Shown: positions 439 to 19,800 of the stretch, one piece after another
Numbering within the stretch: the stretch's first letter is position 1
Layout of the letters: each line of letters starts with the position of its first letter
DNA from: a virus
Virus record (IMG/VR): IMGVR_UViG_3300026094_000032
Span: 1 to 27,355 of that record
DNA: 27,355 nucleotides
Strand: one strand, 5' to 3'
Program-made: the position numbers and the translations under genes
The notes under the pieces: model-generated
Told to the model about the DNA's origin: nothing
Databases searched by the model: none
What the model saw: the letters and a program-made list of their open reading frames with translations, nothing else

Positions 439-879
439 ATGGACACTGTAATTTGTTCCGGAGCTCTCTTTTTTGCTCTTGACACACAAAGATTTTTATT
501 TTTACATCGCGCTAGAGGTAAAAGATCTAACGTGTGGGGATTAGTAGGCGGCACAACGGAAAATGACGAAACTCCCTGGGAAGGATTAAAAAGAGAAATT
601 CACGAAGAAATAGGTAATCAGAATATCAAGAAATCAATGCCCCTAGAAACTTTTGTGTCAAATGACAGAATTTTTAACTTTCATACCTATCTCTGCATAA
701 TTGATAACGAATTTAGTCCTTTATTAAACGACGAACACAACGGCTACGCATGGGTATCTTACGGAAAGTGGCCAAGACCTTTGCACTATGGTCTACATAA
801 TACACTAAACAAAAAACAGAACAAAACAAAGATACAAACACTGTTTGAAATCACGGAGTTATTAAACGTCAATGAGTGA
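439..879 (+). CDS. NUDIX hydrolase
   Basis: A 146-residue protein with a nearly canonical Nudix box: G38, E44, R52-E53, E56-E57 and G59 fit GX5EX7REUXEEXGU, with only the last hydrophobic position replaced by Asn60. The family hydrolyses nucleoside diphosphates linked to another moiety (damaged dNTPs, nucleotide sugars, NADH, dinucleoside polyphosphates) using Mg2+ held by the box glutamates. The substrate cannot be read from the sequence. The protein is short and single-domain, as is usual for the family. The ATG lies 13 bases after the upstream stop without a clear Shine-Dalgarno site, and the 3' end overlaps the cupin-like gene by 8 bases (ATGAGTGA), suggesting translational coupling. A role in nucleotide-pool sanitation or nucleotide-sugar turnover is inference. 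Confidence 0.88.
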   Translation: MDTVICSGALFFALDTQRFLFLHRARGKRSNVWGLVGGTTENDETPWEGLKREIHEEIGNQNIKKSMPLETFVSNDRIFNFHTYLCIIDNEFSPLLNDEHNGYAWVSYGKWPRPLHYGLHNTLNKKQNKTKIQTLFEITELLNVNE

Positions 880-1240
880 ATCAGTTACTAATACCAATTT
901 CGGGTATCAGCTTGTATGGGCCGATACAGAGAATTACAATTGTAAAATTTTAATTTTCAATTTACCTGGTGCTATGACTCCTATGCATTTTCATAAAGAT
1001 ACTACAAAATCTTGGTTTGTAAACGCAGGAAGATTTAGAATCCGATGGATAGATACCGCAGATGGCAATCTATACGAAAAGGACATTACAGAAGGCAATG
1101 TGTTTCATGTTCCTGCTCTTATGCCGGTCAGTATGGAATCTCTGTCTGCGGATGCAACACTATCTCAGGTAAGCAATCAGGATCCGGATCTTGATTATTT
1201 TCACATTAATCCTGCTGAAGGGAACATTGATGCTTCCTAA
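872..1240 (+). CDS. Cupin-like small protein with degenerate metal site
   Basis: A 122-residue protein with a cupin motif 1: G33, H39-F-H41 and G53 match G(X)5HXH(X)3-4E(X)6G, but the usual Glu position is Lys45/Lys46 (KDTTKSW). Motif 2 is recognisable as G75 NVFHV P81, yet the expected His is missing (ALMPV). This is a single-domain cupin fold with two of the usual four metal ligands. It may bind metal differently or have become a non-catalytic binding protein. Cupins include sugar isomerases, epimerases and dioxygenases, and nothing here picks one. The start overlaps the end of the NUDIX gene and the 3' end overlaps the next small gene, so the three genes form one translation unit. Confidence 0.7.
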   Translation: MSESVTNTNFGYQLVWADTENYNCKILIFNLPGAMTPMHFHKDTTKSWFVNAGRFRIRWIDTADGNLYEKDITEGNVFHVPALMPVSMESLSADATLSQVSNQDPDLDYFHINPAEGNIDAS

Positions 1241-3689: not shown

Positions 3690-4268
3690 GTGAGTGAAGA
3701 AATTTATCCTATGAATCTACAAATTATCGATGACTGCATACCTGAATTTTATCAAGATTACTTCGAAGCACTATGTCTAGGAAAAACCAAAGGGTGTGAA
3801 ATAGAAAATGGGTTGCCTTGGATGGCAAAATATGAAGGTACTGCTCGTAGAGACGGTGTAACTCCACTAAGTTTTAAACATATACTAAAAAGTGATGCAG
3901 AATTCTCATCTCATTTTGTTAATTTTAGTACTATACCTGTAAGTGTAGTCAATCAATTGGGATATGCGCTAAACCAAATTATGTATGCAAGATCTTTTTT
4001 GACAACTCCGTATGACACAGATTTACAAAATCACGCTCCGCATGTTGATTTAAATTTTCATCACACAAGTTTAATATATTATGTAAATGATGCAGACGGC
4101 GATACTGTATTTTATAGCAATAATTATAAAAATATAATTAATAGCATCACACCAAAGAAAGGAAGATGTGTAATATTTGATGGCCTTATACCACACGGTG
4201 CAGGAATTCCTAAATTGGGTCCAAGATGTATTGTTAATTTTAATTTAATAATAGGGGATAATAATTAA
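3690..4268 (+). CDS. 2OG-Fe(II) oxygenase superfamily protein
   Basis: A 192-residue protein with the full facial triad of the 2-oxoglutarate/Fe(II) dioxygenase fold: H118-V-D120, distal H169 in LIPHGAG, and R179 ten residues later for the 2OG carboxylate. These enzymes couple decarboxylation of 2-oxoglutarate to hydroxylation or related oxidation, and the substrate is unknown. It is closer in layout to prolyl-hydroxylase-like phage proteins than to DNA dioxygenases. The GTG start at 3690 has no good ribosome site. ATG 3711 (MNLQIIDD) is an alternative giving 185 residues. It overlaps the parvulin gene by one base (TAATG), so the two are coupled. Together they form a plus-strand island between minus-strand blocks and look AT-richer than the fibre genes. 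Confidence 0.85.
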   Translation: MSEEIYPMNLQIIDDCIPEFYQDYFEALCLGKTKGCEIENGLPWMAKYEGTARRDGVTPLSFKHILKSDAEFSSHFVNFSTIPVSVVNQLGYALNQIMYARSFLTTPYDTDLQNHAPHVDLNFHHTSLIYYVNDADGDTVFYSNNYKNIINSITPKKGRCVIFDGLIPHGAGIPKLGPRCIVNFNLIIGDNN

Positions 4269-4597
4269 TGGATAAAGTTAGATGTAGTCATATATTGTTA
4301 AGTCACGAAGATGCAATCGAGTCAACTCACTCTCGAGAACTTTATTTTGCTATTTTTGATGCTAAACAAATTATTGCAGAATTATCTCGCGGAGGGATTT
4401 CTTGGGCAACTGCTGTCAAGGAACATAGTGCATGTCCACATAGCTGGTACAAAGATGGTGATTTAGGATGGTTTGACCTTAATGACGGAGTTGTACCGGA
4501 ACTATATCTTTCGGTAAAATCGGCACCAAAAGATCAATTGTTAGAAGAACCGATACAAACTCCGTATGGCATCCATATATTAGTCAGAACTGGTTAA
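4268..4597 (+). CDS. Parvulin-type peptidyl-prolyl cis-trans isomerase
   Basis: A 109-residue stand-alone rotamase domain. It starts with VRCSHILLS, has a central DGDLGWFDL segment, and ends with TPYGIHILVR, the three hallmarks of the parvulin/PpiC family in order. Parvulins catalyse cis-trans isomerisation of Xaa-Pro bonds and help fold proteins. No signal peptide or membrane segment is seen, so it should act in the cytoplasm. The ATG shares one base with the stop of the preceding oxygenase. Its stop overlaps the convergent stop of the neighbouring minus-strand gene within the palindrome TTAA (4594-4597). A role as folding catalyst for phage virion proteins is inference. The pairing with a hydroxylase-like enzyme suggests a shared protein target. 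Confidence 0.9.
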   Translation: MDKVRCSHILLSHEDAIESTHSRELYFAIFDAKQIIAELSRGGISWATAVKEHSACPHSWYKDGDLGWFDLNDGVVPELYLSVKSAPKDQLLEEPIQTPYGIHILVRTG

Positions 4598-4926
4598 TCT
4601 AATTCATTATCAATAGTAAAAGAAGTTAGCTTCCCGACTAAACTATCATTATCCCTATTTCTATAACTTTTTACTCCGTTGGGGGTAGTAGGATCATCGG
4701 CTAATTTTTCTTTTTCAGTGAGTTCTTCTTCTGTTTGTCCTGCTTCAAGTTGTATATCTAAAATCTCACATCCTTTATTTGGATGATTTTCTTGTATCCA
4801 CTTTTCGGCATTTTCTCTAATTACAAATTTTCTAATTTCTTCGTAACCATCACCGTCTGGGTCCCATGTGTGCCAAACTTTAACATGTGAATGTACCGGA
4901 TGAGGTTTTTTAATTGCAAATGGCAT
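4594..4926 (-). CDS. Small acidic protein of unknown function
   Basis: A 110-residue protein that I do not recognise. The ATG at 4926 has AGGAG six bases upstream, overlapping the TAG stop of the HAD gene, so it is the last gene of the modification operon. The N-terminal half has VWHTWDPDGDGYEEIRKF, which could make a small mixed sheet. The spacing DPDGDGYEE resembles a calcium-binding EF-hand or dockerin loop, but there is no paired helix pattern to support that. The C-terminal half is Glu/Lys-rich (AGQTEEELTEKEKL) and probably flexible. No signal peptide or membrane segment is visible. Its position with the oxygenases suggests an accessory role, which is speculation. Confidence 0.75.
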   Translation of the reverse strand: MPFAIKKPHPVHSHVKVWHTWDPDGDGYEEIRKFVIRENAEKWIQENHPNKGCEILDIQLEAGQTEEELTEKEKLADDPTTPNGVKSYRNRDNDSLVGKLTSFTIDNELD

Positions 4927-4935
4927 TGTTATCTC

Positions 4936-5493
4936 CTATAGTTCTTCTGCAAAAGCTTGCAACGAATCAAATACGTATGCTGAGCGCTTAATGTTCTTGT
5001 ATGTATATTTATTCAAATCTTCTTCAGTCTTTAATCCGTAACCTGTTCTAACAAGCACAGGCCTCGCCCCTATTTTTACTGCTGCTTTTAAGTCTGACAT
5101 TTGATCGCCTACATAAAAACCATTTTTCCAATTTAGATCAGAAATATTTTTCTGACTTAATTTAAACATACCGGTATTTGGCTTAGCGTAGGTGTCTCGT
5201 TTATCGCTACTTTCGCTGTAATATATTCCGTCTATGTCAGGACAACCTGCTTTGCCTAGTAAATTTAACATCTGATCGTGAACAGCATCTACGTCCTCTG
5301 TTGTCATGAAACTCTTTTGTATGCCGCCTTGATTTGAAATAATAACTACTCCATAACCTTTTTTTCTAATTGTAGCTATTGCTTCTAAGCTACCAGAGAT
5401 TGGTTGAAAGTCTTGAGGATGCGTAACATAACCTAAGTCTTTATTTATAGTGCCGTCTCTATCTATACCTACGAAGATTTTTTTACTCGTCAT
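4936..5493 (-). CDS. HAD-family phosphatase, GmhB/HisB-N-like, without zinc loop
   Basis: A 185-residue HAD hydrolase of the histidinol-phosphatase/heptose-bisphosphatase group. Motif I is D11-R-D13-GTIN, motif II is S53 in IISNQGG, motif III is K104 in AKPNTGMF, and motif IV is G129-D130-QMSD134. Known relatives dephosphorylate D-glycero-D-manno-heptose 1,7-bisphosphate (ADP-heptose synthesis) or histidinol phosphate. The usual Cys-rich zinc loop before the KP motif is absent. That stretch reads YYSESSDKRDTYAKP, so the substrate may differ. The gene overlaps the upstream oxygenase by 11 bases. A GT9-like transferase starts the same operon, so a heptose or related sugar link is tempting, but no other heptose-pathway enzyme is visible here. 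Confidence 0.88.
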   Translation of the reverse strand: MTSKKIFVGIDRDGTINKDLGYVTHPQDFQPISGSLEAIATIRKKGYGVVIISNQGGIQKSFMTTEDVDAVHDQMLNLLGKAGCPDIDGIYYSESSDKRDTYAKPNTGMFKLSQKNISDLNWKNGFYVGDQMSDLKAAVKIGARPVLVRTGYGLKTEEDLNKYTYKNIKRSAYVFDSLQAFAEEL

Positions 5494-6064
5494 ATGTATA
5501 CCATCCGGTGATAATATATTTGTAGCCTGTGTAAATCGGATTACCTCTATGCGGAAATAAAAAGCTAGTAGGAAATAATACTAGTTTACCTTGTTCGGGT
5601 TTAAGTTTAACACCTTGGTATAAGAATTCTGTTTCACCACCTTCGTCTATGTCGTTGAGATATAGCATGTAATTTACTATACGTGTAGAACTACTTTTAT
5701 CAGATGCTTCGGCATGCCAGGCATGAAATCCTTCATGTGGGCCTGTTCTTTGTAAACTCATTCCTTTTGGACTATGTTGTGCTCCGTGCTTTAGCATAGA
5801 ATATTTTTCAATATAATCTTCTATATAAATCTGATTAATTGTTTGGTAGAAATGATCGCACAGATTATAGTCATAATGATAAACCTTTTGGGTGTGTGCC
5901 CAGTCAAAGACAATTCTGTTATCTGTAACAAACCCATGTCCTCGATTGTTAGGTTTGACAATATCTCGTCGAGCCATTACTTCGAAATGTTTAATAATTT
6001 CTTCGCAATATTGCGGTTCAAATGCGTTAGGATATTCTTCTATTCCCGAGTAAAGTTCGCTCAT
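5483..6064 (-). CDS. Prolyl-4-hydroxylase-like 2OG-Fe(II) oxygenase
   Basis: A 193-residue single-domain oxygenase. The metal site reads H117-A-E119 inside GFHAWHAEA with distal H172 in LFPHRGN, so Glu replaces the usual Asp. Lys182 stands ten residues after the distal His where most relatives have Arg. Collagen-type prolyl 4-hydroxylases also use Lys to hold 2-oxoglutarate, so this member is the best protein-hydroxylase candidate in the cluster. The core strand NYMLYLNDIDEGGETEF is typical of the PKHD/P4H group. The start has AAAGGAG just upstream and overlaps the stop of the SGNH gene by 4 bases (ATGA). Whether it modifies proline, another residue or a small molecule is unknown. Confidence 0.88.
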   Translation of the reverse strand: MSELYSGIEEYPNAFEPQYCEEIIKHFEVMARRDIVKPNNRGHGFVTDNRIVFDWAHTQKVYHYDYNLCDHFYQTINQIYIEDYIEKYSMLKHGAQHSPKGMSLQRTGPHEGFHAWHAEASDKSSSTRIVNYMLYLNDIDEGGETEFLYQGVKLKPEQGKLVLFPTSFLFPHRGNPIYTGYKYIITGWYTYDE

Positions 6065-6873
6065 TTTCTCTCCTTTAAATAAGTTATGTAGTCTCTTGCA
6101 ATAAGGTCGTGTACGTAATAGTTATAATGTTCGGGGTCGACTTTTTCTTGATCAAGAGAATTATCTGAATGTTTTTGCAAATACGTTAGTGCGTCTTGTT
6201 GTGCAAATGTTGTTTGTGTTAAATCTGTATAGTATCCGTCGACATTGTCTGGAATAAAACACCTATCATTAACATTCCAAACATGTAACGGAATATTTCT
6301 TTCTCTGCAGAGCATATCCATGAACGTTATATCTTTCATGTAATCCTGCTGTTCTAGATGTGTTTGATTGTAATGCCACATCTTAACATACAAATATGCA
6401 CTGCGTCTAATGTCAGGTTGCCGAGTGATAGTAGTATCTTGCATATACTGAAAATCGTCCCAGTCTGACGGTTCTACTTTTAAATATTGTTCTAGATATT
6501 TTTTCTTTTGTACTAATCCTAATTGGTATCTTTTTATTAGATTGTTACTCAAATCTTGTTCTATAAAAAAGTCTAGCGGATAAATTTTCTGTTCATCTAA
6601 ATCTGGATTAATTGCTATAGGAAATCTGCCCCAATAAGTTGACTGTACAAAAACTTCGTCAATATCATCGTAGTGCCTTAATGCATGTGCTAAAAAATTA
6701 GGATACGCTCTATTACCGCACCCTGCACTTGCCATAACTATTATTTCTTTATCGTTTATTTGAGAATAAATTTCTGCATAATTATTTTCCTGCCAGACTT
6801 GTGCAGGAGTATCTAAACTATAATGTTTGTAGCCCATACTATGACTACACCCGATAAAGAGAGTTTTACTCAT
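6061..6873 (-). CDS. SGNH/GDSL-like hydrolase
   Basis: A 270-residue protein with scattered SGNH blocks. Block I is FIGCSHSMG with Ser10 as nucleophile, and a Gly/Asn block is SAGCGNRAY with Asn54. A DPEH segment (Asp247-His250) near the C-terminus matches the DxxH catalytic pair. The second candidate His is H256. The superfamily includes esterases, lipases, carbohydrate O-acetylesterases and O-acetyltransferases. No signal peptide is visible, so it should work inside the cell. It overlaps both neighbours by a few bases (ATGAGTAA upstream, ATGA downstream) within a run of oxygenase genes, which suggests action on the same product, for instance adding or removing an acyl group. The superfamily is fairly safe and the reaction is unknown. 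Confidence 0.75.
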   Translation of the reverse strand: MSKTLFIGCSHSMGYKHYSLDTPAQVWQENNYAEIYSQINDKEIIVMASAGCGNRAYPNFLAHALRHYDDIDEVFVQSTYWGRFPIAINPDLDEQKIYPLDFFIEQDLSNNLIKRYQLGLVQKKKYLEQYLKVEPSDWDDFQYMQDTTITRQPDIRRSAYLYVKMWHYNQTHLEQQDYMKDITFMDMLCRERNIPLHVWNVNDRCFIPDNVDGYYTDLTQTTFAQQDALTYLQKHSDNSLDQEKVDPEHYNYYVHDLIARDYITYLKERK

Positions 6874-7414
6874 GCCATGTTACCTCAAAATCAAATACCA
6901 TTACACGTCTCTCGTCTAATGTAGGATATGCTCCGTGCCAGATTCGAGAATCCATAACTAGCAATTTTCCTTGTTGCGGTTGCCACCATTCTACATACGT
7001 TTCCCCTAATTCGTCTTGCAATATTGCGTAGAATGCTCCTTCATCATTTGGTTGATCTTCAATATTATCGAAATATAAAACTGCTGTGCATCCTGTTTTA
7101 CCTTTAGCGTGGTTATGTAATCCTTTCCAGCCGCCTGGGTAATATCTAATACTCCAAGTCTGTATATGTGTATGCAGTTCGCATGGAATTTCACCTTTCT
7201 TTAATAGATTATTTGTTGTTTCTATGATAAAGTTAGCTATGTCTTTGGTTTCTTCAGTTGTATGCGGAATCTGGTATCCGTTAACTGTTGTGCTTATTCC
7301 TGGCGTCACTATATTAGGATGATCAGCATTTAATAATACCTCATACTCTTGCCACATAGGAGCATATGTTTCAACTATCCACCTATTATTCGCTATGTAT
7401 ATAGTATCATTCAT
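6866..7414 (-). CDS. 2OG-Fe(II) oxygenase-like protein with HxH motif
   Basis: A 182-residue member of the phage oxygenase group. The metal region is GWKGLHNHAKG (H100-N-H102), followed by a CTAVLYFD strand, distal H160 in DSRIWHGAY, and R169/R170 for 2OG. The second ligand position is His, where classical enzymes have Asp or Glu. This occurs in the PF13759-like family as I recall it, so it is probably a subfamily trait. The substrate is unknown. It overlaps the genes on both sides by 8 bases (ATGAATGA upstream, ATGAGTAA downstream), a clear sign of coupled translation. Confidence 0.8.
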   Translation of the reverse strand: MNDTIYIANNRWIVETYAPMWQEYEVLLNADHPNIVTPGISTTVNGYQIPHTTEETKDIANFIIETTNNLLKKGEIPCELHTHIQTWSIRYYPGGWKGLHNHAKGKTGCTAVLYFDNIEDQPNDEGAFYAILQDELGETYVEWWQPQQGKLLVMDSRIWHGAYPTLDERRVMVFDFEVTWHE

Positions 7415-8015
7415 TGTCTTGTACCGGCGTTATTACAAAATTTGCTGCAATACTCGCTCTTAGATTTTCTGACTTGCTAGGTAAAACATAATGTGAAATC
7501 CAGCTAGGAAACAATATCAGTGTTCCTCTTTCCATTGGAGGAATAATATGCTGATAATTATATGCGTTAAATATTCGATCTAAACCAGAGCTTCTAATCA
7601 TTTGAAAATTAGGACATTCAAAGACTAGTTGGCCGCCGGCGTCTTCGTCGTCGGGGTATTCTAACAAGTATATTAAACTAATACCCCTTCCTGGAAATGC
7701 ATGATCGTGGGGTTCTTGATAATCACTTTTGTTGTATACGTTTAACCAATGCTCGTCACATATAATTTTATAAGACATCTGCGGATCTAAAGATTCTAAA
7801 AAACTATTCAAGTGCGGCTCGATCGAATTGAAAAAAGAACTCCACGGAAGAGAATCATTTTGTTTTCCACTTCTAATTGTAGTTTTAGCCTGCGCCATCG
7901 TCCAATCACCGTTTGAAAACAACGCTGAATCGTTAAAAAACGGAGACCATTCATCTAAAATTTCTCTTGAATTTTCAAGTTTAGCCGAGTAAAAATATGT
8001 CGCCCATAAGCTCAT
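7407..8015 (-). CDS. 2OG-Fe(II) oxygenase, PF13759-like (HxH)
   Basis: A 202-residue protein with a clear late-barrel signature: WLNVYNKSDYQEPHDHAFPG carries H103-D-H105, the strand ISLIYLLEY follows, and LILFPSWISHYVLPS carries distal H175 with R186 in LRASIAANF. This matches the layout of the 2OG-FeII_Oxy_5 family (PF13759), common in marine phages and their hosts. As in that family, His stands where Asp is usual. The first 80 residues form a helical N-terminal region without recognisable motifs. The ATG directly abuts the stop of the upstream gene. The substrate is unknown. Confidence 0.87.
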   Translation of the reverse strand: MSLWATYFYSAKLENSREILDEWSPFFNDSALFSNGDWTMAQAKTTIRSGKQNDSLPWSSFFNSIEPHLNSFLESLDPQMSYKIICDEHWLNVYNKSDYQEPHDHAFPGRGISLIYLLEYPDDEDAGGQLVFECPNFQMIRSSGLDRIFNAYNYQHIIPPMERGTLILFPSWISHYVLPSKSENLRASIAANFVITPVQDNE

Positions 8016-8519
8016 TTATATTGTTCCTTTGATAGTCGATTCGGCATTAAAAAAGAATACCTGTGTTAGTCTTCCAGTTTCTGGACTATTGCCAAATCCG
8101 GGAATCATACTGGAATGATCTATATTTCCTTTATATAAAACTAGTCTATTATAAACGTTACCGATTGCTGTGACTAGCTCGTCATTTTCATTGTACAACG
8201 CCGTGCCTGCTTCTACTGGAGCATCAGGTGTAAGATAAAGAACACCTGCCCAATCACAGCCATCTCGATGAATCCAAGTTTTGGCTCCTTCGTACACTAG
8301 CTGAAAACAAAAGCTATCGTATAGAAACTCACTTACTGATACATTTAAAATCCTAGCAACTTGCTTTTGAAAGAATTGTTGATAGTCTCTGTCGGCAGCG
8401 TCGCTACGCATTCCAGGGTATTTTCCTTCCTGGCTGTTGAAAGGTAATTTTACAACCTGCTCTCTTACTAAGTTAGGATTCGGTAAAAAGTTGTCAATAA
8501 TTACAGTAGATACTTCCAT
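8016..8519 (-). CDS. DUF6445-like 2OG-Fe(II) oxygenase-type protein
   Basis: A 167-residue protein with the triad H84-R-D86 in TWIHRDGCDWAGVLYLTP, H135 in LYKGNIDHSSM, and R150 in GRLTQVFFF. The YNRLVLYKGN and GRLTQVFFF strands are the signature I associate with DUF6445, a family in phages and proteobacteria related to 2OG-Fe(II) oxygenases. Unlike its two downstream neighbours it has the classical HxD motif. The ATG shares one base with the stop of the upstream gene (TAATG). The N-terminus (VIIDNFLPNPNLVREQ) matches the typical start of this group, so the start is likely right. Substrate unknown. Confidence 0.85.
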   Translation of the reverse strand: MEVSTVIIDNFLPNPNLVREQVVKLPFNSQEGKYPGMRSDAADRDYQQFFQKQVARILNVSVSEFLYDSFCFQLVYEGAKTWIHRDGCDWAGVLYLTPDAPVEAGTALYNENDELVTAIGNVYNRLVLYKGNIDHSSMIPGFGNSPETGRLTQVFFFNAESTIKGTI

Positions 8520-9037
8520 TACATAAAATCCATATAAATATTTCCAGAAATAGTAGTTCCTCTATTTCCAGGTCTTACAAAGTGTTCGATAAAACTAGGA
8601 AATATAATAATATCTCCCTTATTACATTGAGGTCTGAAGTCTAAAGGAAATTCTTCCACATTTGAACCAAACTGATTTTGCACGTCTTTTAAAATAGGAC
8701 TCATAAAAACTGTCTTTGATGATTCAACAGTTTCATAAATTATAAAACTCCAGCTGGATCTAGGGTGAATATGAATATCCTGCCAGTCATTTTCTTCGTA
8801 CTTATTTCTCCATATTTCGCCAAATCTAGGATTGCCTCCGATTAGTTCAGTGCCTAAATTCTTAGACATAACTTCAATAAGATATTCGTATGTGCTGTCA
8901 GATATATCATGATTTTGCCCTAACGTTGAATTAGTTTCACTTAACCACAAACGTTCAAACGGTGCATCACTGATCTGTATTTTTTCTAAGTCTATAGTAT
9001 CAATAAAAATTGGAACGTGAAACATATTATATTTCAT
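8519..9037 (-). CDS. 2OG-Fe(II) oxygenase, PF13759-like
   Basis: About 172 residues from ATG 9037. A TTG at 9046 would add three residues but sits only three bases from the GGAG site, and ATG 9025 is a third option. The metal region is QDIHIHPRSSWS, with an HxH pair about 90 residues in, then IIIFPSFIEHFVRPG with the distal His, and R in NRGTTISGN. This is the same architecture as the 202-residue neighbour at 7407-8015, and the two are probably paralogues. The N-terminus (MFHVPIFIDTI) resembles family members that begin with a short strand naming the target side. Substrate unknown. The stop of the upstream gene lies one base before the ATG. Confidence 0.84.
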   Translation of the reverse strand: MKYNMFHVPIFIDTIDLEKIQISDAPFERLWLSETNSTLGQNHDISDSTYEYLIEVMSKNLGTELIGGNPRFGEIWRNKYEENDWQDIHIHPRSSWSFIIYETVESSKTVFMSPILKDVQNQFGSNVEEFPLDFRPQCNKGDIIIFPSFIEHFVRPGNRGTTISGNIYMDFM

Positions 9038-9038
9038 A

Positions 9039-9674
9039 TTATACAAAACTCCTTTGAGGTAAGGAATTAGCTCTCATAGTTTTATAAACTAAAGTTGCAC
9101 GTAATCCTTTATAATTTTTGTTAGGCGGAAAACCGTGATGGGGGATATTACCTTTGAACAAAAATACTCGGCCAGGTTTGGGATAAACTTTTTTCCACTC
9201 TCCGTCGAGCTTAATTACGGTTTCTCCGCCCCATTCTTCTTTCCACTCTCTATTTACATAATAAATCCAGCTAATACCGTTATCACATTGACAATCAGTG
9301 TGTTCAATAGTATTATGAATCCATTGTTGACCATTAACTAATATTTCTCCAACTTCAAGTTCAAACGGAATCATTGTAGCAATAGCAGCATATATCATAC
9401 TCCAAGCACTGTCGTTCGCATTTCCACTATGCGGAGGATAAATTTGTTGTTTGAAAGCAGGAACCTCTGGCCATGATAGGTCTGCACCTATGTCATGCGT
9501 CGGGTCGTCAGGATAATTACTAGTGTGTCCGTAGAACCAATTGTATCCACTAAAAACTGTGCTATGCACATGTTCAATCATCCACTGCGGGAAAAGATCG
9601 TCTATTACTATCATCTGATCTACAGTTAGGTCGAAGCCTCTTAGATCGGCTGCCGGTTTTCCATTAATTAACAT
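9039..9674 (-). CDS. 2OG-Fe(II) oxygenase superfamily protein
   Basis: A 211-residue protein with H125-T-D127 in NTIEHTDCQC, distal H179/H180 in GNIPHHGF, and R192 in GLRATLVYK, the complete set for an Fe(II)/2OG dioxygenase. The strand GISWIYYVNREW and the segment WGGETVIKLDGEW match the prolyl-hydroxylase-like phage group. It starts directly after the carbamoyltransferase stop (TAAATG) with GGAG six bases upstream. It is the first of five oxygenases transcribed after the carbamoyltransferase and before the SGNH gene. The triad makes activity likely, but the substrate cannot be read. Confidence 0.87.
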   Translation of the reverse strand: MLINGKPAADLRGFDLTVDQMIVIDDLFPQWMIEHVHSTVFSGYNWFYGHTSNYPDDPTHDIGADLSWPEVPAFKQQIYPPHSGNANDSAWSMIYAAIATMIPFELEVGEILVNGQQWIHNTIEHTDCQCDNGISWIYYVNREWKEEWGGETVIKLDGEWKKVYPKPGRVFLFKGNIPHHGFPPNKNYKGLRATLVYKTMRANSLPQRSFV

Positions 9675-11492
9675 TTAAATCTCCATCTTTAATAACTTTT
9701 TATGTTCTGGTAAGTAGAGATATTCGATCTCACTGTTTGCTAAAGTCCGCAATGCATCATCAAGTGTCTCTACTAAAGGTTCTCCACCTAGATTAAAACT
9801 TGTGTTAAAAATGACAGGAACGCCAGTTTGTTTGTAAAACTCATTTATTACTGAATGATAATGTTTATTTTGTGATTCTTTAACTGTTTGAATTCTACAG
9901 GTTCCGTCTACATGAATAATGCTAGGAATTTTTTCTGCTACACCTTCTTGGCAATTTACAGCATACATCATATGCGGAGATTCTTCCATGCCTCGCATGT
10001 CAAACCATTCATGTGCGTGTTCTGCCAGAATAGATCCTGCAAACGGACGGAAATACTCCCTACGCTTAATACGATTCACCCAATCTTTACCATCTTCAAA
10101 TGTAGGATCAAACATCAAGCTTCTATTACCTAAAGCACGTGGGCCTGCTTCTGATCTTCCTTGGAACATTGCCACAATGTTCTTACTGCGCATTAATCCG
10201 ACTATACCTTTTTCATCGATATCTAAAATTTCTGCATTATACTTTTCGGCAGTAGATACAACTTCTTTGTAACTATATTCTTTCGGCAAGCCTAAATATA
10301 AATTTTCGCCAAAGGGCTTAGGTGTTTTATCTCTAGATATTTGTTGCCAAACAATATATGCTGCACCAATTGCTGTGCCTGCATCAGAACTAACCGGGTC
10401 TACATAAAGATTTATATCGAGCTTATTGAGCTCTTCTAGGTAGTAATAATTAGCTACACAATTTAGACCATATCCGCCAGAAAGTACAATATTCTTTTTT
10501 CCGGTCATTTCATATGCTTTTAGGATTAATTTTAGCGCTTGCCCTTGACTTTCTTGCTGTACAGAATATGCTATATCTCTCCTATTTTCTAGAAGAGTCA
10601 CTTTATCATGCTGTTCTCTCGACTTATAGTACTCCGGCGAAGTTGTTAGGAATTCGTAAAAACCTTCATTAATAACAGCACCATTCGGATAAGTAGGAAT
10701 AACTAAATGACGATTAGAAACTGTCCATTCGCCGCCAGCGTCTAGGTATAACGAAGGAATTTTATTGTTAGGTTTGCCATACGATGACAGCCCCATAGTT
10801 TTACCTGCTTCGATCGATGTAAATCCGCAATAGGTAGTCACCGCTTCGTAGGCCTTTACGATACCTGCAGTGTCATCGACTACACATTCGTGTGTTCCAT
10901 ACTCATCATACCTATCGCTAGGCATTTCTTTAGTATATGACGATTTAAACGGTCCGTTGCCGCCAATGTGCTTCCATAGTGTTTTTATATCAAAAGGATA
11001 TTCACAATCAAAAATTGTTTCTAGTTCATACAACATATCCTCCCCGGTTCGTTCAAATTCGGCAGGAATAAAGGTTCCTGCACCGTCGATAACCACTGCT
11101 GCTGCTGACTCGAATCCCGAACGGAAAAATGCAGAAGATGCATGTAACTTATGATGTATGTGTGCTAGGTCGATTACCTGAGGATGGTTGTAGATATCAA
11201 CCTTTGGATCGTTGTCAATAAGACCCAATTTACGTGCAAGTCCTGTATAAACATCATCATCTGTAAAGTCAATCTTCGCTGCTGTTTCTTTTAATGGCAT
11301 CGTGTGTGCAATAACTAAGTAATCTAACTTATCTGTGTAATCTAAAATTTTAATCATCGATGCTAGAGGACCGCCGTCGTACTTGTGTCTGCTCAGTCTT
11401 TCTTCTTCAATAAAAAATACAATTTCTCCGTCCTTCAAAAGACACACTCCTCCGTTGTGTCCCCTTGTTATAGCTGCAATCCATTTGGTCAT
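9675..11492 (-). CDS. Carbamoyltransferase, NodU/CmcH family
   Basis: A 605-residue protein with both domains of the O-carbamoyltransferase family. The N-terminal Kae1-like domain has ITRGHNGG at the start, the histidine motif HIHHKLHA (residues 111-118), VVIDGAGT, and LSGGYGLNCVAN. The C-terminal YrdC-like domain has FQGRSEAGPRALGNRS near residue 445 and FNTSFN followed by GEPLV near 560. Relatives (NodU, CmcH, TobZ) make carbamoyl adenylate from carbamoyl phosphate and ATP and transfer the carbamoyl group to a hydroxyl of a sugar or antibiotic. I chose ATG 11492, which has GGAG nine bases upstream. TTG 11507 would overlap that site. It follows the glycosyltransferase by one base, implying that a glycan or hydroxylated product is carbamoylated. 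Confidence 0.95.
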   Translation of the reverse strand: MTKWIAAITRGHNGGVCLLKDGEIVFFIEEERLSRHKYDGGPLASMIKILDYTDKLDYLVIAHTMPLKETAAKIDFTDDDVYTGLARKLGLIDNDPKVDIYNHPQVIDLAHIHHKLHASSAFFRSGFESAAAVVIDGAGTFIPAEFERTGEDMLYELETIFDCEYPFDIKTLWKHIGGNGPFKSSYTKEMPSDRYDEYGTHECVVDDTAGIVKAYEAVTTYCGFTSIEAGKTMGLSSYGKPNNKIPSLYLDAGGEWTVSNRHLVIPTYPNGAVINEGFYEFLTTSPEYYKSREQHDKVTLLENRRDIAYSVQQESQGQALKLILKAYEMTGKKNIVLSGGYGLNCVANYYYLEELNKLDINLYVDPVSSDAGTAIGAAYIVWQQISRDKTPKPFGENLYLGLPKEYSYKEVVSTAEKYNAEILDIDEKGIVGLMRSKNIVAMFQGRSEAGPRALGNRSLMFDPTFEDGKDWVNRIKRREYFRPFAGSILAEHAHEWFDMRGMEESPHMMYAVNCQEGVAEKIPSIIHVDGTCRIQTVKESQNKHYHSVINEFYKQTGVPVIFNTSFNLGGEPLVETLDDALRTLANSEIEYLYLPEHKKLLKMEI

Positions 11493-11493
11493 G

Positions 11494-12537
11494 TTATTTT
11501 TCTCCAAAGCGTTTTATGATAGTATTTCCTGGAATAAGGTTACCTTTAGGTGACTGTGTTGATGATTGATTAGGCAATGAATGTAATTCTTTTTTGTTTG
11601 CTGTGCCAAGGCGTGTACGTACACTTTTTAAAATCATGTCGATTTGATTTTGATCAAGTTCCATTACTTCGTCGTTAATTCTGTCTTGTTCTTCTTCCAT
11701 AGTAATTCTTATAGGAGAATAAACTCTTGATCCATCACCTACATCAATAATATCAAATTTATCATCATCAGGATAAGAAATATTTACAGGATAAGTTGAC
11801 CCGGTAACAATTGTAGCTGTTTTTCCTAATGCTTTAACAATATGCTGACCTAAACTATCGCATCCTAAAAAATGATCTGCAATATCAATAATTCCTGACC
11901 AAATTCTCATGTCTGGAATTTCGGGCTGTGCTACAGGATGTTTAGGGTTAGGATTATCGTCAACAACTACAGGATGCTCACTCATTATAATAATGCCATA
12001 CTCTGTTTTAAGTTTGTTAATTATATCAATAATATTGTTTAATTGAAAACTTCTAGATGTTGCATCTATTAAAAAATCGCCCATATTTTCGACAGTTCTA
12101 CCAAACGGCTGTACAACTAGAACTTTATCAAAACCAGTAACTGATTTAACTTCTTCTACAACATTTGCTGCGCTAACGACTTCCTGCTTGTTTAGTACTA
12201 TTGTTGGCTTATCTAGATTGCGAATTCCCTTTTTGTTAATTTCTATATCAAATGCTTGTGACAAACTACATTTTTGATTATAGTATTCCCAAACACGATA
12301 CGGCTCCGGACTTACACAATTTCTGTCTTTGATTTTTTCTTCGAATAATCCTTTGTGCCAGTTATCGTAAACTCTTGTTGAGAGTGTTGGATGTCCTTTA
12401 AAAAAATCTGTGCCGCCTTCGCACACAATAATAAAATCATCGTCTGGATTTTCTTTTTGAAATAATTCGAAAGCGGGAATAGAAGCAATTACTCTTCCTG
12501 CACCGCCGTTAATAAAAAATGTTGTTGATCTCGACAA
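11494..12537 (-). CDS. GT9-like glycosyltransferase (heptosyltransferase superfamily)
   Basis: A 347-residue GT-B type protein. The N-terminus FINGGAGRVIASIPAFE matches the first loop of GT9/ADP-heptose transferases, and GCDSLGQHIVKALGKTA matches their C-terminal DSGxxH nucleotide-sugar motif, with Leu-Gly in place of Gly. Family members transfer heptose or related sugars to LPS core or to other acceptors. The acceptor here is not evident. The reading frame is open to a GTG at 12570, but that codon lies between the -35 and -10 hexamers of a promoter. TTG 12537 has AGGAGT six bases upstream and gives the expected N-terminus, so I take TTG. The last 50 residues are polar and low in complexity (NQSSTQSPKGN). 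It is the first gene of the modification operon. Confidence 0.8.
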   Translation of the reverse strand: MSRSTTFFINGGAGRVIASIPAFELFQKENPDDDFIIVCEGGTDFFKGHPTLSTRVYDNWHKGLFEEKIKDRNCVSPEPYRVWEYYNQKCSLSQAFDIEINKKGIRNLDKPTIVLNKQEVVSAANVVEEVKSVTGFDKVLVVQPFGRTVENMGDFLIDATSRSFQLNNIIDIINKLKTEYGIIIMSEHPVVVDDNPNPKHPVAQPEIPDMRIWSGIIDIADHFLGCDSLGQHIVKALGKTATIVTGSTYPVNISYPDDDKFDIIDVGDGSRVYSPIRITMEEEQDRINDEVMELDQNQIDMILKSVRTRLGTANKKELHSLPNQSSTQSPKGNLIPGNTIIKRFGEK

Positions 12538-12660: not shown

Positions 12661-13374
12661 TTACATTACGATTGCGTCGGGATCGTCTGGGCCTTCTTCG
12701 CTTGCAGGATCGATTGGCTCCATGTTGTATGCAATCCAGGCCGGAACATCGTTAGATTCCATGATGTTAGGCCAATCTCTCAAACGCTGTCTATAATCTA
12801 ACCACTTGTTTCTTAGATCTTGTGGCATATCGTCAGTCATTTCGCTATCACTGTTTTTTAACAGTTGTTTTCTTTTTGCTCTAACATCATCCCATGTGGG
12901 CAATCTGTCGCCTGCTCCCATAACTGCCCAGGGGATAGATCTTGCCTGTACTGTAATGTTGTCTTTGCTATCAATGTGTATAGTTTCAGGATCGTATATA
13001 TCTAGTGGGGTTAAAGGAACTTGATAAGTGAAGTTGTTGTATCCTGGGATATCTATACTACCTGGAGGATACACAGCATCAGTGTACTCTTCGTCAGCTT
13101 CGTCAATGATTGGTCCTCTAAGTTCACATATCAACGGATTGGAGATACAATCTACTTCAACATATCTACAACCTTTGGGTAGAGGTCTACCGTCTGCTTT
13201 TTCAAGTTCAGTTATAGGTCCTAGATGCTCTTTACCTGTATCGTTTTCAACAATTAAAAACAATTTATCCGGACCATCATAGATACAGGTTCTTGTTTTA
13301 CCGTCAGTAAAACTGTGATCAATCATATATTCATTGGGCAAATTACATGTCCATTCAAATTCAACCATTGCCAT
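12661..13374 (-). CDS. Tail-assembly-chaperone-like protein
   Basis: A 237-residue protein. The C-terminal region (residues 160-202) has TWDDVRAKRKQLL, then NSDSEM, then KWLDYRQRLRDWP. This is the RxxLLxxSD...WxxYRQxLRDxP pattern of phage tail assembly chaperones (Phage_tail_APC, PF16778) and related fibre-assembly proteins. The first 150 residues are unfamiliar and rich in acidic and aromatic residues, with four cysteines. It may bind a fibre or contribute to the virion. It sits directly after the three cysteine-rich adhesins, the usual place for a fibre-assembly factor. The ATG at 13374 has AAGGAG ten bases upstream. A second ATG two codons on is equally possible. A perfect late box (13396-13403) precedes it and a hairpin follows it. 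Confidence 0.72.
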   Translation of the reverse strand: MAMVEFEWTCNLPNEYMIDHSFTDGKTRTCIYDGPDKLFLIVENDTGKEHLGPITELEKADGRPLPKGCRYVEVDCISNPLICELRGPIIDEADEEYTDAVYPPGSIDIPGYNNFTYQVPLTPLDIYDPETIHIDSKDNITVQARSIPWAVMGAGDRLPTWDDVRAKRKQLLKNSDSEMTDDMPQDLRNKWLDYRQRLRDWPNIMESNDVPAWIAYNMEPIDPASEEGPDDPDAIVM

Positions 13375-13404: not shown

Positions 13405-14217
13405 TTAAAAAAATGTTAATTTAACTACTCCGCCGCCGCCGGTGCCGCCTTGACCGCAACAACGACCGCAGTAATTAGAGTTTGCGCTTTGTCCGCCGGC
13501 GCCATAAGGCACAATCCAACAACCACAACGTATCCAACAGTAATTAGAATTCTGCTCGTAGTAATTGTCACTTAAATTCGGTGAACCTGTTGAATGTCCA
13601 ATATGCTTCCAGCAATGACAAGCACCGCCTGGATACAGGTATGATGATTGGCCTTGAAAGTTGCCGCCGTGTGTGTAACTGGCCCAATCGCCACTTGCAC
13701 TGGTTCCTACACAGCCCGGTCGAACACAGTAAGGCATAGTTGAATAGCACTGATCAGTCCACGATCCGTTTGTACAACCTCGCTGACCTCCACATGCACA
13801 TAGACCGCTTAGGTTAAATCCGTTTACATATGAAGTACAGCCGTTACAGCCGTTGCATGCACGAGATAAGCATCTGTAAACACCTGCTGCACATACCGTA
13901 TATTGACAGCCGGGATTGGTAGTTATGCTCTTTGATGTATATGCGCCACCACCGGGCGGTCCTGTGTGTTGACACCTTCTACAACTGCAAGCGCCGGCGC
14001 CGTTTCCGCCAGCACCCCAAAGTTCCCAGTTCAATCGCCTAGTGTTATCGGGCACTGTCCAAAGACAGCAGCAGCCCGGTGAACATCTACAACTAATTCC
14101 ATAAAACCATTTGACGCAAAAATTTTCTCTTACTCCGTCGGCAAGATTGTCATAATCAAGTAGATCGTCTGTTAATTGATCTGCAGTAATTTTTCTGTAA
14201 CTTGAATACGATGCCAT
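13405..14217 (-). CDS. Cysteine-rich, glycine-rich adhesin-like protein, copy 3
   Basis: A 270-residue protein with about 29 cysteines. The first 35 residues form a short polar stalk like those at fibre N-termini. Then come CRCSPGCCC, WELWGAGGNGAG (a glycine-rich collar found in phage adhesins), CSCRRC, CQYTVCAAGVYRCLSRAC, YVNGFNLSGLCACGG, a variable stretch, RCGCWIVPYGAGG and GQGGTGGGGVVKLTF. Conserved blocks alternate with one variable region (about residues 145-225), as expected for a receptor-binding tip. A cytoplasmic protein with this many cysteines probably binds metal or forms disulfides after release. ATG 14217 has AAGGAG five bases upstream. It is the longest and last of three paralogues, and its stop is followed at once by a late promoter. 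Confidence 0.85.
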   Translation of the reverse strand: MASYSSYRKITADQLTDDLLDYDNLADGVRENFCVKWFYGISCRCSPGCCCLWTVPDNTRRLNWELWGAGGNGAGACSCRRCQHTGPPGGGAYTSKSITTNPGCQYTVCAAGVYRCLSRACNGCNGCTSYVNGFNLSGLCACGGQRGCTNGSWTDQCYSTMPYCVRPGCVGTSASGDWASYTHGGNFQGQSSYLYPGGACHCWKHIGHSTGSPNLSDNYYEQNSNYCWIRCGCWIVPYGAGGQSANSNYCGRCCGQGGTGGGGVVKLTFF

Positions 14218-14226
14218 TTTGGCTCC

Positions 14227-15009
14227 TTAGATATATAATACTTTTACTAGGCCGCCGCCGCCTGTGCCGCCTTGTCCACAACAATCGCTATTGCAATATG
14301 TGTTCATTGCACTTTGACCGCCTGTTCCGTATGGTACACTCCAGCATCCGCACTTTATATAGCATTGTCTCAAGCCCTGTGTTGAACCGCCGCCGATTCT
14401 CATTGCCTGTCCTTGGTGTATTTCCTGTGGGTGACAATGACAGTATCCACTTGCTGTAGAAAATGCCTGCGTGTGTCCGCCTATAGCAAAATCACTGCCA
14501 GATTGTCCTGGAGAATAACAATAATAATTTGTAGCGAAACATCCTGTCGACCAAGAAGTATTTGCTTCGGCACGGTGTCCGCCGCACGCACAATAACCTG
14601 ATAAATTAAATCCGTTTACATACGAACTACAGCCATAACAACCTGTACACGCACGAGATAAGCATCTGTAAACACCTGCTGCACATACAGTATATTGACA
14701 GCCGGGATTGGTTGCTATTGTTTTGGAAGTGTAACCTCCGCCTCCTGCAGCTCTGAAGTGATGACACCTTCTACAAGTGCAAGAGCCGGCGCCGTTTCCG
14801 CCAGCACCCCAAAGTTCCCATGTAAGCCTTTTTACCTGCGGTGGTACTTCCCATCGGCAACAGCACCCGGATGAACATCTACACGGTACGCCAAAAAACC
14901 ACTTAACACCAAAATTATTTAAAGTGTTCTGATCAATCATATTATCGTCGATAACACTATCTGGTATCTGTGATCCGCTAACTTTTTTGTAACTTGAGTA
15001 ATTTGCCAT
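14227..15009 (-). CDS. Cysteine-rich, glycine-rich adhesin-like protein, copy 2
   Basis: A 260-residue paralogue with about 26 cysteines. It keeps every conserved block: CRCSSGCCC, WELWGAGGNGAG, CTCRRCHH, CQYTVCAAGVYRCLSRAC, YVNGFNLSGYCACGG, KCGCWSVPYGTGG, and CCGQGGTGGGG at the end. Its central variable segment (about residues 145-210) differs in sequence from both sisters and is His- and Gly-rich (GYCHCHPQEIHQG). The stalk (SGSQIPDSVIDDNMIDQNT) also differs. The start ATG lies exactly 792 bases from that of each sister. The upstream ribosome site is AGGATT, weaker than that of copy 3. It lies 12 bases after copy 1 and 9 before copy 3, so all three are co-transcribed. Virion location is inferred. 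Confidence 0.85.
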   Translation of the reverse strand: MANYSSYKKVSGSQIPDSVIDDNMIDQNTLNNFGVKWFFGVPCRCSSGCCCRWEVPPQVKRLTWELWGAGGNGAGSCTCRRCHHFRAAGGGGYTSKTIATNPGCQYTVCAAGVYRCLSRACTGCYGCSSYVNGFNLSGYCACGGHRAEANTSWSTGCFATNYYCYSPGQSGSDFAIGGHTQAFSTASGYCHCHPQEIHQGQAMRIGGGSTQGLRQCYIKCGCWSVPYGTGGQSAMNTYCNSDCCGQGGTGGGGLVKVLYI

Positions 15010-15021
15010 TCTCTAATCCTG

Positions 15022-15801
15022 TTATGCAAATGTAATTTTGACTACACCGGGGCCGCCCGTGCCACCTTGACTACAACAGTCACTACCACAATAACTGCTC
15101 ATCGCTCCTTGACCGCCGTGTCCTGGAGGTGCGATCCAACAACCGCACCTCGAGTAACACACGGCAAGCGCCATAGCAACGTTGCCTCCTAAGAAAGGTG
15201 CTCCTGTGGGTCTAACATACTGATGGTGACAATGGCAGTTAAAAATACCACTAAAGTGGCCGCTGTGGCTATTCATTCCAAAGTCGCCGTTGTTATCATT
15301 CGGCTGTAAACAACAGGTCCAGCAACTATAACAATACTGAGTCCAGTCTGTATTGGCTCGTCCACAGCCGCCGCCCACAGCGCAAAAGTCTGATAAACCA
15401 AATCCGTTTACATATGAACTGCATCCGGTACACCCTATACACTCACGAGATAAGCATCTGTAAACACCTGCTGCACACATGGTATATTGACAACCTGGAG
15501 AAGTTGAAATCATCTTAGAATTATATGCTCCGCCGCCGGCACCTGCGTAGTGATGACACCTTCGACAACTGCAAGCGCCGGCGCCGTTTCCGCCAGCACC
15601 CCATAATTCAAAAAATACACGTCTAGTACATCCAGGAACAGTCCATTGGCAACAGCAACCTGCAGAGCAACGACAGGCGTTGCCTATTAGCCATTTTGTA
15701 CACAAATTATGTCTAGTGTCGGCTGCAAGTTTATTTTCTGAAACTGTGCCGTCTATTACTTGTCCCTTTACTATTTTTTTATAACTCGAATATGATGACA
15801 T
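15022..15801 (-). CDS. Cysteine-rich, glycine-rich adhesin-like protein, copy 1
   Basis: A 259-residue paralogue with about 30 cysteines, including the local cluster YCYSCWTCC in its variable region, absent from the sisters. Conserved blocks are CRCSAGCCC, FELWGAGGNGAG, CSCRRCHH, CQYTMCAAGVYRCLSREC, YVNGFGLSDFCAVGG, RCGCWIAPPGHGG and CCSQGGTGGPGVVKITF. The ribosome site is poor (GAG within GGCAGAG). It follows the 238-residue fibre-type gene by 15 bases and is the first of the three. Proteins of this make-up occur in marine T4-like phages as unnamed Gly/Cys-rich proteins to my knowledge. The receptor-binding role is inferred from the collar motif, tandem copies and position. Confidence 0.85.
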   Translation of the reverse strand: MSSYSSYKKIVKGQVIDGTVSENKLAADTRHNLCTKWLIGNACRCSAGCCCQWTVPGCTRRVFFELWGAGGNGAGACSCRRCHHYAGAGGGAYNSKMISTSPGCQYTMCAAGVYRCLSRECIGCTGCSSYVNGFGLSDFCAVGGGCGRANTDWTQYCYSCWTCCLQPNDNNGDFGMNSHSGHFSGIFNCHCHHQYVRPTGAPFLGGNVAMALAVCYSRCGCWIAPPGHGGQGAMSSYCGSDCCSQGGTGGPGVVKITFA

Positions 15802-16883: not shown

Positions 16884-19800
16884 TTATCTCAAGTAGTAAT
16901 TGAAAGCTAGCGGTTGTCCGAGGACTGCACCTTCAAATTTTACGTTTGCTCGTATATTTATCTGTTCGCCCGACACAGTAGTAATCTGATTAGTGTTAAT
17001 AAACACATCGCCGGCCGTTACAGAGTTAACATTTAGACTGGCGCCGCCGCCGCCGATCTGTGCTTCAATGAATGCTTTAACTGCTCGCTGTGTAGGAACA
17101 ACGTTATCAGAGTTCGCAGTAAAGAACGGATCTGTTGAGAACTCGCTGATTGCTGCGGAGTTTCCGCCTAGTGTAACCTCACCTAGTGATAGTTCCTGTA
17201 AGCCTGCAATGTTAAATGCTTCTGCATCAAGTGTGGCAACGCCAGTAGCCTGTTCTATTGAGAACAGATTACCTACTCTGAAGTTACCATCTTGGTCTGT
17301 GGCTGTAAAGAACACCCTGCCGCCGTCGAACTCATTGGTTTCTTTATTGGCGTCTGGAGCATTTACAGGTATTCCAGGATAATTAGTATCAACAAAGTTA
17401 CCAGTACCAATATCAAGGAAATCATGACTGGATGCACGTACCTGACTGTATCTTATTCTTAGTGTCACTCCGTCGCCGTCCTGAGGAGCATCTGTTATGC
17501 TCATTTCAGGTGATAGCTGCAAGAATGCTGTAAATGAACCTGGATTTTCACCTATAAATGACACCGTATTAACCAGTTTGAATACCTGTCCAGGCAAACT
17601 ATCAAACACAATGTTTGAACCATTTACTGGTCTTGCAGAAAGCTGTTTTACAGCAACAAAGCTGCCGTCCTGGAAGAAATCAGCAAAACCGTTTGAGTTT
17701 GTGTCGTTAATTTCTGCAGATGCAGTAGTAAAGGAAGATCCTCTAGCAACAAATGTTGGATTAGCAATTGAACCGTTACCTAGTCTAACTGCAAGCTCTA
17801 CAGGCTCAATATTGTTAGGATCAAATATCGAAATTTCAGGGGCAGTATCATAGTTACTGCCAGGCTCTTTTAAACGTACTTGGAATAACTGTTCGTTTGC
17901 TACACCTGATCTACCTTGAGCTCTTGCACCTATTTCTGCAACAGAAACTGTGGTTGTAGGAGCGCTTGCACCAACAACCAAGAACTGATGATTGAGATTA
18001 GGATTACCATGAGCAACTGCGTTATAACCAGCAGCTTCTGCTCCTAGGGTAAATAGCTCCCAAAGAACGCCGTCTTCTGAATAAGCAATAGAATTGTCGT
18101 CTCTAGTTGCGACAAAGATGCCTTGTCCATATGATAGCTGACTATATACTCCTCCTGTCGGAAGACTGGTTTCGAACCATTCAATGCCATCTATTGAATA
18201 CACAGCAACATTAGTATCATCGGCTATAGCAACAAATCTGCCATTGCCCCATTCTACATCTATCCATGCAGCAGTTGTACCGATTGTAGCAGTTGTCCAT
18301 GTTAAACCGCCGTCTTCGGAATAATAGGCGTTCTCACTTCCTCCTTGCAGTGCCATAAACCTACCTTTACCATGAGTAAGAGCAGTAACGCCTGTAGCTG
18401 GTAATACACCTGACTGAATAGTCCAGCTAGCACCGCCATCTGTTGAAGTGCTAACGTCGGTTGCTGTAGAATTGGTAATCAAAAATTTGTTATCGCCCGG
18501 CGAAGGTTGTCCGAACGCAATTTTGATTGTGCCTGATCCTATTCCGCTGTCAGCTGATTCAAATGTTTCAGCGTCCGAAGAATAGTTTACAGTTCCGTCT
18601 GCAGCAGCAATTACCAATGCAGATGGCTTAAGTAAACTCGAACCGTCGTCTAAAAGACCGCTTGCTGAATCAACCCAACTGGCTGAAGTAGCTAGTGTAG
18701 TAGAAGAATAGTTTAAACCTTCTGTGCTCACCTGTGCTGTGCTGCCACTAGACGGAGTAATAACAAATACACCCTTCTGTGCTAAACCATCAAAATTAAA
18801 ATCTATAACAGATCCGTTTGTTTTGTTGATAGTTGTAATTGTTACCGTAATATCATTGAGAGGACTTGTGCCTCCTAACAAATCACCTGATATCGTAACA
18901 GTATCTAATCTATTATACCCTTCGCCGGCGTTGTTAAGAGTCACATAGTATTTTGAACCCACTCTTGTTACGTCAAAGCTTGCTTGCTCTCCGTCTGAGT
19001 TTGTAGTAGTTGCAACAGCATTATATTGGGCTGCAGTTTCAAAATAGTCTGCAGTAGAATATGTACCTGAAGTAATAGACTCTACTGTTGCAGTCTTAGC
19101 AGGCGCAGTAAAGAATGCTCTCGGCTCTACTTGATAAGTAGAACTTGAGTTAGGAGAACTTATAGGCGTGCCTGGCACAATGTGTTCCCAGCCAAGCTCC
19201 ATTTCAATTGCAGTGCCTGTTCCTGATCCTGCACCTGTCGCAGTGAATATAGTTCCCGGTCTAGGATTAATAAGAGTTTCGTCACTGATACTATCCCAAT
19301 CTGTATCTCCTGCATCTTCAATTCTGTAGATTGTTGAGGTAGTAAAACTTCCTGCTGCAGTTGGAGTATAAGTAGTTGGTCTTACAACCTCTGCTTCTTT
19401 TGAACCCGAATCATAGGTATATACAGTGCCGTATAGTCCGGTAGCAGCACCTGCAGTTACATATACTGACATTCCTGGATAGGCAGAACTTAGATTTCCG
19501 TCAGTAGCAGCAAGGAATATACTAGTAAGACTTCCTGTTTGAGCTGTGTTAGAAATAAGCGTGAATCCACTTCCGCCTGCAGTATCAGGCTCAGTCTCTA
19601 CTATTCTTACCTGTTTGACTGCTCCGTCTCTAAACTCGTCTGCAAGTAACTCTTCACTGTCACCGGAACCAAATATGTCAATTGCAGCTTCTGTGTATCT
19701 ATCACCAGCATGTCCGAATTCTAACTGCAGAATTTGATCTTGATCAGTGAATACGTTTTCTACAGTAGCATTAAACTGTGTTCTATTATCTACAACGGCA

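Follow-up and report, generated by a model that had tools for sequence, protein, structure and literature searches.

Why does a marine phage carry six oxygenases, a carbamoyltransferase, a glycosyltransferase, an SGNH-like protein and a phosphatase in one operon, next to an array of cysteine-rich tail fibres? The locus lies in IMG/VR record IMGVR_UViG_3300026094_000032, a virus record with no other contig, of which we analyzed positions 1 to 27,355 (the window). This 27 kb stretch is part of the genome of a T4-like marine phage, whose relatives among cultured phages are cyanomyoviruses. The operon comprises eleven open reading frames (ORFs), all on the minus strand, between 4594 and 12537. Judged by gene content in related loci, its core is the fibre array together with the glycosyltransferase (GT) and the carbamoyltransferase (CT), and the 2-oxoglutarate (2OG)-Fe(II) oxygenases (OG1 to OG6) are accessory. 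The cassette may decorate the phage's own fibres with carbamoylated heptose, the oxygenases serving as optional tailoring enzymes, a reading on which we are evenly balanced. The fibre array and the operon contain the following features:

15022-15801, minus strand: F3, Cys-rich (11.6%) tail-fibre protein
14227-15009, minus strand: F2, Cys-rich (10.0%) tail-fibre protein; model resembles the Pam3 fibre gp24
13405-14217, minus strand: F1, Cys-rich (10.7%) and Gly-rich tail-fibre protein (phrog_4205)
12661-13374, minus strand: apc, chaperone for tail-fibre assembly (PF16778), separating the fibre array from GT here and in relatives
11494-12537, minus strand: GT, GT9-fold glycosyltransferase (phrog_8954), first operon gene; conserved DSxGxH donor-site motif
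9675-11507, minus strand: CT, NodU/TobZ-type O-carbamoyltransferase (PF02543 and PF16861; PDB 7xb6, NovN, TobZ)
9039-9674, minus strand: OG6, 2OG-Fe(II) oxygenase (PF13640), HxD...H...R
8519-9046, minus strand: OG5, 2OG-Fe(II) oxygenase (PF13759), HxH...H
8016-8519, minus strand: OG4, oxygenase-like protein (DUF6445, phrog_1644), HxD...H...R
7407-8015, minus strand: OG3, 2OG-Fe(II) oxygenase (PF13759; solved relatives 3bvc and 2rg4), HxH...H...R
6866-7414, minus strand: OG2, divergent PF13759-like oxygenase, HxH...H...R
6061-6873, minus strand: SGNH-like protein, putative hydrolase or acyltransferase; GCSH block I, DxEH block V
5483-6064, minus strand: OG1, oxygenase related to bacterial prolyl 4-hydroxylases (3itq, E = 1e-9), HxE...H
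4936-5493, minus strand: HAD phosphatase related to GmhB, the heptose 1,7-bisphosphate 7-phosphatase (4pnh, E = 5e-20)
4594-4926, minus strand: small conserved protein, last operon gene

The constant core of the locus

Two sets of relatives were compared, with near-identical contigs counted separately in all locus counts. The first set, 80 viral contigs found through CT, displays a constant core of three fibre genes, chaperone, GT and CT, followed by a variable remainder. The second set was found through the fibre protein alone and comprises the 80 most similar matches (about 48-100% identity), more distant Gly-rich fibres lying outside it. Of the loci in this set, 55 continue for 4.5 kb or more past the final fibre gene; all 55 contain both GT and CT, and in 55 of 55 the pair comes after the fibre and chaperone genes. 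The co-occurrence with the Cys-rich array that the initial annotation had proposed to look for is thus borne out for the operon core. The same annotation held that conservation of the operon in phages lacking these fibres would speak against its proposal; nearly all GT-CT loci with enough flanking sequence, ascertained by similarity, carry the fibre family. The make-up of the operon is not a matter of chance, since independent contigs, with a GT of 72-84% identity, have their genes in the same order.

Oxygenases are absent from 10 of the 49 loci that extend at least 8 kb beyond CT and number one to seven in the others, with 25 architectures. Because these 10 well-covered loci have none, the oxygenases are accessory and not core. 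The emphasis initially placed on so many oxygenases in a row is therefore not sustained, long runs being ordinary in such phages, as in Syn9 or in S-SCSM1, where 24 were already known and, according to the same paper, oxygenase functions were not specifically investigated (PMC9602691). The minimal architecture is GT-CT-HAD-cupin-HldD-HldE, without oxygenases, and some relatives carry PF04820 halogenases. In Syn9 (NC_008296; L173:24966-36789), two Trp-halogenases come after the Gly-rich fibres, and then about nine oxygenases in a row, among them a JmjC type. Unlike those of the window, these fibres are Cys-poor (0.8-2.5%) and the region has no GT or CT; Syn9 is also missing from the 23 phage records in which GT occurs. 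Oxygenases can therefore stand in a row next to fibres without the GT-CT pair, as seen in this one control phage. With the same single control as the contrast, the GT-CT pair goes with Cys-rich fibres.

Cysteine makes up 10-12% of each of the three fibre proteins, and in the alignment of their family 17 Cys columns are nearly invariant. The best match of the F2 model (predicted local distance difference test, pLDDT, of 68) is the cyanophage Pam3 fibre gp24, with Z-scores of 17.0 and 16.6, the latter over 191 residues with a root-mean-square deviation of 3.0 and a TNF-like plus Gly-rich fold. Next come a tail-tip protein of mycobacteriophage Bxb1 and the ALK Gly-rich domain. Host recognition in Pam3 is the task of gp24, with gp25 as the chaperone that folds it (PMC9608196), so the likeness includes a neighbouring tail-fibre assembly protein, whereas the fibres of the window are Cys-rich, occur in three copies and have modifying enzymes downstream. 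Given the Pam3-like fold and the PF16778 protein between the array and GT, the fibre would be the natural acceptor. PDB sequence-profile searches with the fibre, GT, OG4 and SGNH alignments gave nothing useful, and the chaperone has no PDB relative by sequence.

Enzymes of the cassette

GT has no Pfam match, and its initial assignment as a GT9-like enzyme was confirmed by the fold of its predicted structure. The AlphaFold2 model (pLDDT 82.5) matches the GT9 structures 3tov (Z = 22.3), WaaF (19.6), WaaC (18.5) and TibC (18.0), against 12 or less for the next structural class, which indicates a GT9-type GT-B fold. A DSxGQH motif on the donor side is invariant, is kept in 60 homologues and aligns with NDSGLMH of WaaF. 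At the place of the N-lobe catalytic Asp (D13 in WaaC, D110 in TibC) a weak alignment puts Arg15, and by this comparison GT probably lacks the usual catalytic Asp. The TibC/BAHT system, for which heptosylation of adhesins is established (PMC4358343), resembles the present one in that a GT9-fold enzyme is tied to an adhesin-type surface protein, with heptose as the likely sugar. GT differs from TibC in having no C-terminal four-Cys cluster, and hence no TibC-type iron finger, and no room for the N-terminal β-barrel; the proposed substrate is here a phage fibre, and carbamoylation and oxygenases are added. Among the bacterial and archaeal genomes searched, the GT homologues were four phage-like contigs binned in metagenome-assembled genomes, and no cellular source was found. 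The T4-like phage tail-fibre islands (L168-L171) present in GTDB genomes with the labels Rhodobacteraceae and Euryarchaeota are probably misbinned.

The HAD phosphatase of the initial annotation is firm and GmhB-like: its best solved relatives are GmhB proteins, and it matches the curated GmhB family NF006506 with an E-value of 2e-37 and 128 bits, below the cut-off of 178. In P-SSM2, S-SSM7, S-CAM1 and Sf-FS3, GT and CT have the same families of genes next to them. Those of P-SSM2 encode proteins that match HldE kinase (3e-43), HldE adenylyltransferase (1e-30) and HldD (5e-62), none reaching the curated cut-off. Homologues of HldE-II and HldD are present in 15 of the 15 large relatives searched, and HldE-II in each of the 23 phage records with GT, many of which are near-identical strains. 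The nearest fuller relative of the window, contig L003, encodes an HldE kinase-adenylyltransferase fusion and has HldD beside a cupin. The relatives thus point to heptose, from an ADP-heptose donor, as probably the decorating sugar, and the co-occurring ADP-heptose genes suggest that GT may transfer heptose from this donor. A SIS_2-type GmhA isomerase was not found in nine relatives. The cupin gene lies at most two genes from heptose genes in 22 of 26 cases, and one may speculate that it is a candidate isomerase replacing GmhA in the pathway. The cupin (872-1240; L084:10124-10480 in a relative) is annotated as 'cysteine dioxygenase' in phages and occurs in 35 phage records. The 'phosphoheptose isomerase' of P-SSM2 (L084:10461-10805) is not an isomerase, as it matches the EcbF/BcbF HAD phosphatase.

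The initial annotation of CT also stands firmly. The protein has N- and C-terminal NodU/TobZ domains with an HHxxH metal site, its relatives include GdmN, and HHxxH (118-122) and D141 are conserved in 64 homologues. The assignment of an SGNH hydrolase fared less evenly: the alignment contains the Ser and Asp-His blocks (GCSH/GDSH, DxEH), the Pfam basis is weak (one relative matches Lipase_GDSL_2 with an E-value of 0.009), and the block III Asn is not clear. In a scan of viral contigs, SGNH matches were found only in the window's own contig and in L003. That the protein performs an acyl transfer step is a guess.

All six oxygenases initially annotated are recognized by Pfam or PHROGs, OG2 weakly so (PF13759, E = 9e-4; phrog_81, E = 2e-9). 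Homologue alignments reveal a conserved His-x-Asp/Glu/His...His pattern in each of the six. The canonical facial triad HxD/E...H is present in OG1, OG4 and OG6; OG2, OG3 and OG5 lack the canonical acid and have HxH...H instead. The solved PF13759 relatives 3bvc and 2rg4 also align with HxH, and these three proteins fit the PF13759 family and not the canonical triad. The sole BLAST link among the six is between OG3 and OG5 (27% identity). As they belong to different subfamilies with this single link, they did not arise by recent tandem duplication. Genome-wide, cultured relatives have about 15 to 24 matches to two oxygenase Pfam families, with overlaps counted twice. In contig L003, six of the seven places matching these two families fall within about 5.3 kb, an interval picked after the fact. 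Phage annotations such as 'minor coat protein' and 'DNA endonuclease V' often designate oxygenases.

Possible acceptors and products

Three targets had been proposed for the operon, namely the phage's own tail proteins, a host surface glycan and a small molecule. The first is the best supported, through the linkage in 55 of 55 loci and the receptor-binding-fibre fold. Gene content, folds, fibre linkage and heptose-gene co-occurrence are directly seen, and from them we infer a donor sugar, a fibre acceptor, an order of steps and substrates for the oxygenases. The three Cys-rich, Pam3-type receptor-binding fibre proteins would be made together with their chaperone, and phage-encoded HldE, GmhB and HldD would supply ADP-heptose, with the cupin as candidate isomerase. 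The GT9-type enzyme would move heptose from ADP-heptose onto the fibre, and the NodU-type enzyme would carbamoylate a hydroxyl of the fibre heptose. WapO-type enzymes are thought to carbamoylate heptose of lipopolysaccharide (LPS). The oxygenases, and the halogenases of relatives, may optionally add hydroxyl groups to side chains of the fibre or to its sugar, which would diversify the fibre surface.

Several observations weigh against fibre decoration. The fibre family has few conserved Ser/Thr residues, and the invariant Arg15 of GT occupies the position of the WaaC catalytic Asp13 (weak alignment, E = 0.015). The window itself contains GmhB and the cupin without HldE and HldD. The number of oxygenases does not track fibre residue composition, and oxygenases are found elsewhere in the genomes of relatives too. 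The literature searched yielded no virion mass spectrometry on the fibre-GT-CT module. Finally, P-TIM68 and S-SM2 keep heptose genes, without a GT of the window type, in LPS-like clusters away from fibres.

In these two phages the heptose genes stand with other glycosyltransferases, which is in keeping with the main rival explanation: the cassette would alter the host surface glycan (LPS or capsule) during infection, for instance to block superinfection or release progeny, and its adjacency to the fibres would reflect joint inheritance with host-range genes. GT9 enzymes act mostly on LPS, and this is the usual published reading of phage LPS genes (PMC3037559, PMC9602691). No flippase, polymerase or membrane protein was recognized among the operon genes, however, and the position of the GT-CT pair behind fibre and chaperone genes in 55 of 55 loci speaks against this reading. 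In addition, the LPS of marine Synechococcus WH8102 and CC9311 lacks heptose (PMC4515613), whereas Sf-FS3, a phage of WH8102, carries HldE, HldD, GT and CT, which makes a role in the LPS core unlikely. We consider modification of the host glycan unlikely, though deserving of attention.

It is less probable still that these are unrelated auxiliary metabolic genes that, for example, drain 2-oxoglutarate to alter nitrogen signalling. This role has been proposed for cyanophage 2OG oxygenases (PMC3037559), and the many oxygenase copies genome-wide agree with it, but it accounts neither for an ordered, overlapping operon with a constant GT-CT core nor for a gene order conserved across divergent phages, and burning one cofactor needs no six different families. 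We regard as improbable that the enzymes form a natural-product-like cluster that yields either a small molecule or a decorated peptide for secretion, with the oxygenases, halogenase, carbamoyltransferase and glycosyltransferase as tailoring enzymes. The enzyme types do match antibiotic tailoring, CT being related to TobZ, NovN and GdmN and relatives carrying PF04820 halogenases; against this, the operon genes include no scaffold-forming enzyme and are tightly linked to fibre structural genes. Hypermodification of phage DNA bases by oxidation, glycosylation and carbamoylation was dropped as highly improbable, since, although known phage systems of this kind use oxygenases and glycosyltransferases, none of the six oxygenases matches TET/JBP at E ≤ 1 and the operon sits among fibre genes, not DNA metabolism genes.

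Oxygenase runs beside fibres in a cultured phage (Syn9), abundant cyanophage oxygenases and the enzymatic decoration of virion or adhesin proteins are already known. The association of a GT9-fold enzyme and a NodU-type carbamoyltransferase with ADP-heptose genes and a Cys-rich Pam3-like fibre array, in contrast, appears to be new, being undescribed in the literature searched. Virion glycosylation in mycobacteriophages is, to our knowledge, accompanied by no carbamoyl or oxygenase set. There too, phage-encoded glycosyltransferases modify virion proteins, which are the capsid and tail-tube termini in the account given by PMC12619734 (citing Freeman 2023). An LPS-type cluster in P-SSM2 and S-SSM7, to which no function was assigned when it was noted in 2010, has the same gene families (T4-GC 302-308) in the same position beside tail fibres; it was published as LPS genes, possibly 'stuffer DNA', with no link to fibre maturation, and has fewer operon oxygenases than the window (PMC3037559).

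For years, the 'LPS' genes of cyanophages and their numerous 2OG oxygenases have appeared in gene lists with no function attached, and the link to the fibre module gives them a testable role, the completion of the fibre that recognizes the host. The module is present in cultured phages (Sf-FS3, S-SSM7, P-SSM2 and S-CAM1). More broadly, and more tentatively than for the window itself, we propose that in abundant marine T4-like phages Cys-rich receptor-binding fibres may be heptosylated, carbamoylated and hydroxylated (halogenated in relatives) by an exchangeable fibre-linked cassette, that host range may evolve through post-translational chemistry as well as sequence, and that the cupin may replace GmhA. 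If so, phage host range would have a chemical layer missed by sequence-based prediction, and genes that have long been catalogued under host 'LPS' or metabolism would serve to complete the parts with which the virus recognizes its host.

Operon boundaries and neighbouring genes

In coordinate order, the operon junctions measure +9, -11, -4, -8, -8, 0, -1, -8, 0 and -14 bases, the last (CT/GT) holding if the TTG start is used for CT. The coupled, one-strand arrangement of eleven genes was thus recovered upon re-measurement, with a largest overlap of 14 and not 11. The operon had also been placed between a hairpin plus promoter and a convergent end. A hairpin at about 12636-12613 and a promoter-like site, TTGTAA-17-TATTAT, at 12587-12559 lie upstream, and the 3' end converges with a peptidyl-prolyl isomerase (PPIase) gene; promoter-like sites, however, are about as dense in the region as chance would predict (45 observed versus 36 ± 7 expected). 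Three further genes are located on the opposite strand:

3690-4268, plus strand: OG7, seventh oxygenase (PF13640), opposite to the operon
4268-4597, plus strand: parvulin-type PPIase, convergent with the operon
872-1240, plus strand: cupin, of the family accompanying HldE/HldD genes in relatives

OG7 and the PPIase form a pair at 3690-4597, and the PPIase is also present in contigs L003, L012 and L033. psbA is present in four cultured phages and one contig and was not found in seven other contigs, mostly fragments. A tail protein at 24045-26015 contains five carbohydrate-binding modules of family 5/12 (PF02839, E = 4e-34), of the chitin-binding type. The C-terminal 340 residues of a 2385-residue fibre (16884-24041) are 38% identical to the adjoining 419-residue protein (26051-27310).

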